Under the pieces are notes generated by a model. That model was given only the letters and a program-made list of their open reading frames with translations. It was not told the DNA's origin and did no database searches. From Armatimonadota bacterium (GTDB taxonomy: Bacteria > Armatimonadota > HRBIN16), in NCBI GenBank assembly GCA_026003175.1, contig BPGT01000005.1, positions 1 through 64,000 of the forward strand: 64,000 nucleotides of DNA, written 5' to 3'. Shown here piece by piece: positions 28,320 to 44,993 of the stretch (position 1 is the stretch's first letter; each line of letters starts with the position of its first letter). Made by a program: the position numbers and the translations under genes.

Positions 28320-28335
28320 TGGTACGAATCTTGCA
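28320..28335 (+). promoter_or_regulatory. sigma-54 promoter of the PEP-CTERM gene
   Basis: TGGTACGAATCTTGCA has the invariant GG (28321-28322) and GC (28333-28334) with ten bases between, and matches TGGCACG-N4-TTGCW at all but one position. Transcription should start near 28345, about 30 nt before ATG 28375. Twenty-one bases are identical at 44470-44490. Confidence 0.8.
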
Positions 28336-28374
28336 CTATAGTAAAGCGGGTATGATATGAAAGGAGGAAGAAGT

Positions 28375-28953
28375 ATGCTTAAAATCAAGGCGGCTGTGAC
28401 GGTTGCAATAACGTGCATAGCAGCGGCACTGCCGGTGCTTGCAGGTAGCCCAATCCCTGAGATTGAGCCTAATAACACCTTTGGCACAGCTCAGCTGATA
28501 GCTCGTTCGTTGTTTACCCCGACCGGTTCTGTAAGCATCCTGGGATCCATATCACCGGGTGATGTGGACTATTTTGAAGTCCCCCTGCTGGCTGGCGACT
28601 TCTTTGCCGCTCAGCTGGTGATAGTGCCTGGTCCACAGGGTAACTCCAGCGTGTTGGGTACGTACGACCCAGGCGCGAGTCTCGTGGCTTACGACCTATT
28701 CGCTCCGAACGTACTAGCCGGGCTCGTGTCTTCCAACGGAGGATGGCGTGTAGCAGTCAGTGGATACCCCGATGTTGGCTCCACTTTCTTAGGCGATGAC
28801 GGTGTTGCTTTCAATGGAACCCATGGGCAAAGCTTCGGCTATTTGCTTACACTTAGCCTGATACCAGTGCCCGAGCCGGGTGGAATACTGGCTCTTGGCA
28901 CGGGCATCGCCGGGCTACTGGGTTATTCGGTGCGGCGCCGCCGCGCTGGCTAG
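28375..28953 (+). CDS. PEP-CTERM sorting-domain secreted protein
   Basis: A 192-residue exported protein with signal peptide (ending PVLAG). It has an NxPxxE-like start of the mature part (PEIEPNNTFGTAQ) with the look of a bacterial pre-peptidase-like beta domain (GDVDYFEVPLLAGDFFAAQL). The C-terminus is a PEP-CTERM tag: VPEPGG, a hydrophobic helix, then RRRR. Such proteins are recognised by an exosortase and placed at the surface with exopolysaccharide. ATG 28375 follows AAAGGAGGAAG; an in-frame ATG 18 nt earlier overlaps that site. It is driven by the sigma-54 promoter at 28320. Confidence 0.85.
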   Translation: MLKIKAAVTVAITCIAAALPVLAGSPIPEIEPNNTFGTAQLIARSLFTPTGSVSILGSISPGDVDYFEVPLLAGDFFAAQLVIVPGPQGNSSVLGTYDPGASLVAYDLFAPNVLAGLVSSNGGWRVAVSGYPDVGSTFLGDDGVAFNGTHGQSFGYLLTLSLIPVPEPGGILALGTGIAGLLGYSVRRRRAG

Positions 28954-34761: not shown

Positions 34762-34861
34762 TGGCGAGAGCGCGTGGGAATCGAACCCACCCGGGACGGG
34801 GGCAACCCACCCCGCAGACAGCTTTGAAGGCTGCGGAGGACACCAGTCCCCATGCGCTCTC
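34762..34861 (-). tRNA. selC: tRNA-Sec (anticodon UCA)
   Basis: The minus strand gives a 100-nt tRNA with an 8-bp acceptor stem (GAGAGCGC with GCGCTCTC), a 6-bp D stem (GGGGAC/GTCCTC) with 4-nt loop, the anticodon loop CTTCAAA (anticodon TCA), a long variable arm (GCGGGG...CCCCCGT), a 5-bp T stem (GTGGG/CCCAC) with TTCGATT, discriminator G and encoded CCA. The 8+5 acceptor/T geometry, long D stem and UCA anticodon are specific to bacterial selenocysteine tRNA and exclude tRNA-Ser. It implies that the genome has SelA/SelB/SelD and at least one selenoprotein, none of which I see in this window. Confidence 0.95.
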
Positions 34862-44422: not shown

Positions 44423-44469
44423 ATACTGCCCCTGTAAAAACAACCTGTTTTCTCAGCTACCCCCGCGAG

Positions 44470-44485
44470 TGGTACGAATCTTGCA
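44470..44485 (+). promoter_or_regulatory. sigma-54 promoter without a protein gene behind it
   Basis: TGGTACGAATCTTGCA, identical to 28320-28335 and flanked by five more identical bases. GG 44471-44472 and GC 44483-44484 are ten bases apart. Expected start of transcription is near 44495. Confidence 0.8.
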
Positions 44486-44494
44486 CTATACCAT

Positions 44495-44633
44495 AGTGCG
44501 CAGGAGTGCGTGAACGAGACATCTGGACACCGAAAACACACGCCGACCCGTCGGCGAAGAGATACCGTCTTTCCGTTCAGACACTCACTCCTTCATTCCT
44601 GCGTTTGCCCCGGCAGCGTCGGGGCGTTTTTTT
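44495..44633 (+). ncRNA. candidate sigma-54-dependent small RNA
   Basis: The about 139-nt segment between the sigma-54 promoter and a strong intrinsic terminator has no convincing reading frame. The one open frame, from GTG 44506, lacks a proper ribosome-binding site and runs through the terminator. It contains a hairpin CGCCGA-CCCG-TCGGCG (near 44541-44556) and ends in the terminator hairpin. A free-standing small RNA is the simplest reading. A leader for the downstream 67-aa gene is less likely because of the terminator and a second promoter. Confidence 0.5.
44607..44633 (+). terminator. intrinsic terminator
   Basis: GCCCCG (44607-44612), 7-nt loop, CGGGGC (44620-44625), then G and seven T. 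Confidence 0.85.
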
Positions 44634-44664
44634 CACCTCTCTGGATTTTTTAACCGATGTGTTG

Positions 44665-44670
44665 TATAAT
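44665..44670 (+). promoter_or_regulatory. -10 box of the 67-aa gene
   Basis: TATAAT preceded by GTTG; no clear -35 box. About 120 nt upstream of ATG 44790. Confidence 0.4.
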
Positions 44671-44789: not shown

Positions 44790-44993
44790 ATGGAAGCAGA
44801 GCGCCGGGTGTCGCTGTTGTTCCCGCGAAGCTGGCAACTGGTCTCGGTATATGTTCCGGCAAGCGCAGTGGATTACGTCAGGGAGCGTAACATGCAATAC
44901 TGGTTATCCTTATACGAGCGCGACGCGGAACAGGCTCTGCAAATTGGAGAGCGATTGGGATTCGTGGTTCCTCAGAAAGCGGCTTCGTCTTAG
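44790..44993 (+). CDS. small hypothetical protein (67 aa)
   Basis: A 67-residue protein from ATG 44790 with a near-ideal AAAGGAGGTG site, which makes it likely to be translated. It has no signal peptide or cysteines. Predicted beta-strand (RVSLLFPRSWQLVSVYVP) then helix (SAVDYVRERNMQYWLSLYERDAEQALQIGERLGF). Family not recognised. It is an independent unit, bounded by the -10 box at 44665 and a terminator at 45011. Confidence 0.65.
   Translation: MEAERRVSLLFPRSWQLVSVYVPASAVDYVRERNMQYWLSLYERDAEQALQIGERLGFVVPQKAASS

Follow-up and report, generated by a model that had tools for sequence, protein, structure and literature searches.

In the 64,000-nucleotide stretch of Armatimonadota DNA analysed here (the window), a putative small RNA gene of ~138 nt lies at 44496..44633 on the forward strand, delineated as a conserved unit with a predicted fold and no conserved ORF. 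Directly 5' of the RNA is a sigma-54 promoter, TGGTACGAATCTTGCA (44470..44485, +), which carries the -24 GG and -12 GC elements and is kept in all nine homologues; the 5' end of the RNA at ~44496 is predicted, about 12 nt past the -12 GC. The preliminary description had noted the GG-N10-GC arrangement and a 21-base identity with the promoter of a PEP-CTERM gene, and both are correct. Specifically, bases 44470-44490 equal 28320-28340 (+), the promoter of the PEP-CTERM gene 28375-28953, with no third copy within the window, and TGGTACGAATCTTGCACTATA has two exact copies in the window, at 28320 and 44470. A stricter pattern, TGGYACGANNNTTGCA, matches 18 times in the home genome versus 0 times for the reversed control, and RpoN itself is encoded there (PF04552, E 8e-35). 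Downstream of the remaining sigma-54 sites lie genes for PEP-CTERM proteins, S8 proteases, a Wza-like exporter, a cold-shock protein and an exosortase, the names being assigned by eye except those from domain-profile matches. Additionally, three sigma-54-like sites (L061, L064, L067) have near-identical leaders with Rhs/YD-repeat-like ORFs behind them, perhaps recent duplications. Elsewhere in the window, a tRNA-Sec gene (34766-34861, minus strand, 72.9 bits) implies the use of selenocysteine.

The unit, from ~44430 to 44640, is present in nine of the ten genomes compared, all from one genus of hot-spring-type Armatimonadota, with homologous stretches in Armatimonadetes bacterium RSWS16, Bacterium HR16 and Chthonomonadia bacterium Ch118, among others. 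Similarity with the relatives starts at ~44430 and the genes further upstream differ, so the conserved block begins with the promoter region; its first part, just upstream of the promoter (44430..44469, +), is a possible site for the activator or a bending protein. In one relative, a second sigma-54 site (G006:C197:2313-2334, minus strand, L016) sits just upstream of the RNA and points away from it. The tenth genome, G009, retains the target sites described below and is without a detectable RNA, 67-aa gene (the downstream neighbour in the window) or peroxiredoxin-like neighbour; as the three are jointly absent, the assembly may have a gap there or the block may have been lost recently. Outside the genus, 111 further genomes of the phylum yielded six weak and partial matches (E 3e-4 to 0.09), two of them just 38-39 nt long, and we did not accept any of the six.

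The RNA is predicted to fold stably (44496-44636, -55.6 kcal/mol, z -3.98 against dinucleotide shuffles). Its 5' arm, GCGCAGGAGUG (44498..44508, +), pairs with 44594-44604 in both single-sequence and alignment folds and resembles the ribosome-binding sites of the targets, and an inner helix is formed in the alignment fold by CUGGAC (44523..44528, +) with 44575-44580. These helices surround a variable apical hairpin, CGCCGA-CCCG-UCGGCG (44541..44556, +), which is changed on both sides at two pairs in relatives and is deleted in G001. The 3' part contains a near-invariant stretch of 34 nt, UUUCCGUUCAGACACUCACUCCUUCAUUCCUGCG (44570..44603, +), with a single C to U (in G005) among nine genomes, and within it lies the predicted 17-nt seed, GACACUCACUCCUUCAU (44580..44596, +), much of which is base-paired in the predicted fold. 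The transcript would end at an intrinsic terminator, GCCCCGGC...GUCGGGGC, which consists of a GC hairpin at 44607-44625 and U7 at 44627-44633 (+). The internal hairpin, the GC hairpin with seven T and the stretch lacking a credible ORF had each been noticed from the window alone, and all are borne out here, the last as ~138 nt without a conserved ORF. The expectation of conservation with compensatory changes holds in part: promoter and terminator are retained as a pair in nine of the ten genomes, and compensation is restricted to the two pairs of the internal hairpin. Compensatory changes are few and the long-range helices give no covariation signal because the helices and most of the RNA are invariant.

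No ORF of at least 8 codons closes inside the transcript of the window, and the ORFs in the RNAs of relatives reach 20 codons at most and are not conserved. A 73-codon GTG frame starting at 44506 passes through the terminator and is broken by indels in relatives. A hidden small protein was ruled out, neither strand holding a conserved frame. A known Rfam family was likewise excluded, since no gathering threshold was reached and the best match scored 17.5 bits against a cut-off of 40. The locus thus has the form of a trans-acting sRNA gene, as judged from sequence: a free-standing non-coding unit with its own Rho-independent terminator.

Inspection of the regulon genes, extended through orthologues and genome-wide pattern searches, points to four target genes, at which the seed is complementary to the ribosome-binding site. 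The exosortase gene (G000:C4:177112-177969; PF09721, E 1e-61; TIGR02602 above the cut-off, with the XrtA cut-off not reached in the profile search) has the ribosome-binding site GAATGAAGGAGTGA, which is exactly complementary to the near-invariant stretch over 14 nt, and contiguous pairing extends over 13-15 nt in all nine genomes, G-U allowed. Two genes downstream in the same operon, a gene for a Wzc-like Wzz/tyrosine autokinase (TIGR01007) pairs over 11-13 nt in eight genomes, at a site that overlaps the 3' end of the gene before it. The third target encodes a prepilin-type H-X9-DG protein (G000:C2:884004-884684) and lies behind TGGTACGCTTTTTGC; it pairs over 12-14 nt in seven of eight genomes, the site being lost in G008, and the pairing stops at the AUG. 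The fourth is a PEP-CTERM gene (G000:C1:508630-509439; PF07589 just below the cut-off, C-terminus VPEPASL) behind TGGCTCA-type sigma-54-like sites, with pairing of 13-17 nt in seven genomes, G-U allowed, and of 17 nt in G001; some relatives have a degenerate -24 element in its promoter (TGTACC in G009, for example). All four transcripts begin at sigma-54-like sites, and all four pairing sites cover the Shine-Dalgarno sequence. The exosortase match was noticed ahead of target searching and the other three were found by complement search. The idea that the RNA would match PEP-CTERM ribosome-binding sites is supported for the gene at G000:C1:508630-509439 and fails for the window's own PEP-CTERM gene behind the 28320 promoter, which was discarded as a target with a run of 6 nt; judged by its promoter, the latter would belong to the same regulon as the RNA without being a predicted target. 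Two further observations concern these searches. In the exosortase leader (L140 ~1505-1600, G000:C4), nearly all nine genomes share a hairpin, ACGGGGCGGTAGACCCCGT, and a GGTTCGC-like stretch; no Rfam family matched above threshold, and these features may amount to a second control element. At L201 (G000:C2:365300-367200), a 12-nt seed match, AAGGAGTGAGTGGTATG, precedes a very short or broken frame.

We then compared the complementarity with background. In the home genome, Watson-Crick runs reach 14 nt for the exosortase, 13 for the Wzc-like gene, 14 for the prepilin gene and 11 for the PEP-CTERM gene, versus a maximum of 9 among 170 background genes of the same genome and likewise 9 among the 19 with AAGGAG. 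The joint run total was reached by none of 20000 composition-keeping shuffles with CUCCUU held fixed, a test that favours the claim, as three of the four targets had been chosen for matching the complement. The stronger argument is evolutionary conservation: across the four target families aligned on the site, the 12-base target block is 95-99% identical, whereas the ten bases upstream are 54-64% identical. Most substitutions within the block are A to G, which preserves pairing; G-U-compatible changes that keep the run occur in the exosortase gene of G004, G006 and G008, in the prepilin gene of G003/G009 and, as C-to-U, in the RNA of G005. A conserved seed is therefore complementary to target ribosome-binding sites across species, as in trans-acting sRNAs. 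Unrestricted duplex energies were uninformative because long bubbled duplexes dominate, and we used contiguous runs and cofolding in their place. Cofolding the full RNA with 90-nt leaders gives gains of -15.0, -11.8 and -10.5 kcal/mol for the exosortase, Wzc-like and prepilin genes, against a background mean of -2.7 kcal/mol; among 56 background genes with a Shine-Dalgarno sequence, the numbers cofolding equally well are 0, 1 and 1, respectively. For the PEP-CTERM target, the gain in the home genome is small (-4.0 kcal/mol).

These data bear on the reading that the RNA has some other function, such as binding a protein or serving as a 16S anti-Shine-Dalgarno decoy, and that the matches merely reflect strong Shine-Dalgarno sites. 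The core does include CUCCUU, the complement of any AAGGAG, and AAGGAGTGA-type ribosome-binding sites are enriched before start codons, with 12 ahead of ATG in the home genome; such sites being common, part of each match is ordinary. However, the complementarity continues for 5-8 nt past the Shine-Dalgarno core, over which it is conserved as the flanks drift, further genes of the RpoN regulon with AAGGAG sites match over just 5-7 nt, and the four targets make up one pathway. In galT and bL17, control genes that share the AAGGAGTGA start, the sequence drifts immediately after it. The galT gene of G004 (L211) does carry a 14-nt seed match, AAGGAGTGAGTGTCC, which is not found in G000 or G007 and looks like drift; a chance match of this length means that single-genome matches are insufficient. 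We therefore regard a decoy or other unrelated function as improbable.

Downstream of the terminator lies a 67-aa gene (44790..44993, +) with no Pfam match, which we judge to be outside the RNA unit; its protein is conserved in the genus, and most genomes hold one or two diverged paralogues. It directly follows the RNA in eight of nine genomes, which would suit a cis-acting leader or attenuator, that is, a sigma-54 transcript that continues past the terminator and whose hairpins control the 67-aa gene. The two are not always linked, however, the RNA and the 67-aa gene being on different contigs in G008. Moreover, the terminator is strong, and between it and the 67-aa gene lies TTGTATAATG, conserved in most relatives that have the gene beside the RNA, with a -10-like TATAAT (44665..44670, +) that may belong to a separate sigma-70-type promoter of the 67-aa gene. 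A leader would also leave the complementarity to other mRNAs unexplained. Given the separation in G008 and the intervening -10-like element, we rejected this reading, to which we grant only a very slight probability. Since the upstream neighbours differ as well, the RNA is an independent unit.

Together, these results make it likely, in our judgement, that the locus encodes a sigma-54-dependent sRNA acting in trans to repress translation within a subset of the RpoN regulon to which it belongs. The promoter, the conservation, the terminator, the lack of a conserved ORF and the complementarity with its conservation are established computationally; that the gene is transcribed and that the effect is repressive, like the physiological role and any chaperone, is inferred. 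The U7 tail is compatible with an Hfq-dependent sRNA. In the proposed circuit, an RpoN activator, assumed to be common to the RNA and its targets, would switch on the RNA together with exosortase, PEP-CTERM, exopolysaccharide and prepilin genes. The 3' stretch of the RNA (core GACACUCACUCCUUCAU) would then pair with the ribosome-binding sites of the exosortase, Wzc-like, prepilin-type and PEP-CTERM mRNAs, cover the Shine-Dalgarno sequence and lower translation, and this repression would depend on CUCACUCCUU in the RNA and the matching leader bases. The 5' arm would mimic the target site and partly mask the seed, so that pairing would begin at unpaired seed bases and proceed by strand exchange. 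Given the promoter class common to the RNA and its targets, an incoherent feed-forward loop is the simplest circuit, and it would cap or delay the sorting of surface proteins and the export of polymers. Members of the regulon whose sites are of the AAAGGAGG type, e.g. the window's PEP-CTERM gene, would escape. The same pairing could in principle have another outcome, the mRNAs sponging the RNA or the pairing stabilising the mRNAs and raising expression, as the sequence does not reveal the direction of the effect and RNA and targets have a common promoter class; yet all four sites cover the Shine-Dalgarno sequence at the start codon, a position from which repression is what established sRNA biology predicts, and we hold such an outcome to be most unlikely.

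The preliminary description had placed a small RNA in the RpoN circuit of the PEP-CTERM proteins and suggested that it might act on surface-protein or exopolysaccharide mRNAs. The former gains support from the conservation of promoter, RNA and terminator as a unit and from the sigma-54-like promoters of the targets, and the latter from the predicted complementarity to the exosortase, Wzc-like, prepilin and PEP-CTERM ribosome-binding sites. The predicted pairing of a near-invariant stretch with the translation start sites of a sorting enzyme and related genes suggests that the RNA probably lowers the surface-protein and exopolysaccharide programme. We see about even chances that an RNA whose own copy of a ribosome-binding site masks its seed forms a post-transcriptional gate on an entire surface pathway, namely the sorting enzyme, a polymer chain-length kinase, a prepilin-type protein and a sorted substrate.

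Sigma-54-dependent sRNAs are established in enteric bacteria, Vibrio and Pseudomonas, as exemplified by Qrr1-5, GlmY/GlmZ and CrcZ. Like the present RNA, these have a free-standing gene with a -24/-12 promoter and a terminator of its own, and the Qrr RNAs pair with the ribosome-binding sites of several mRNAs, as predicted here. The present RNA differs from them in phylum, sequence and targets, and has no Rfam match. In Campylobacter jejuni, the RpoN-dependent sRNA CJnc230 (FlmE) represses translation within its own surface-organelle programme (PMC11187230); it is processed from the flgE mRNA and has flagellar targets, whereas the present RNA has its own sigma-54 promoter and predicted targets in the exosortase pathway. 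For PEP-CTERM genes, control by sigma-54 is established, and the portions of the literature that we drew on describe upstream sigma-54 promoters, a link to exopolysaccharide and floc formation, and the PrsK/PrsR regulon (Haft 2006, PMC1569441; Xia 2023, PMC9850573). As presented in those portions, the PrsK/PrsR system is transcriptional control in Proteobacteria, whereas the layer proposed here would be post-transcriptional and in Armatimonadota.

No small RNA in exosortase/PEP-CTERM control was found in the literature searched. With the kind of regulator established and no Rfam family matched, this points to a new sRNA family whose predicted targets form a new network. With the RNA, its 17-nt seed and four target sites specified, the circuit is directly testable with reporters in a laboratory host, and the analysis illustrates how raw sequence, compared across ten species, can yield an sRNA regulon with no RNA data at hand. 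If true, this would be, as far as the literature searched shows, the first sRNA tied to the control of exosortase/PEP-CTERM systems, which occur in many biofilm- and floc-forming bacteria, and, within the same literature, the first predicted sRNA target network in the Armatimonadota, a scarcely studied phylum.
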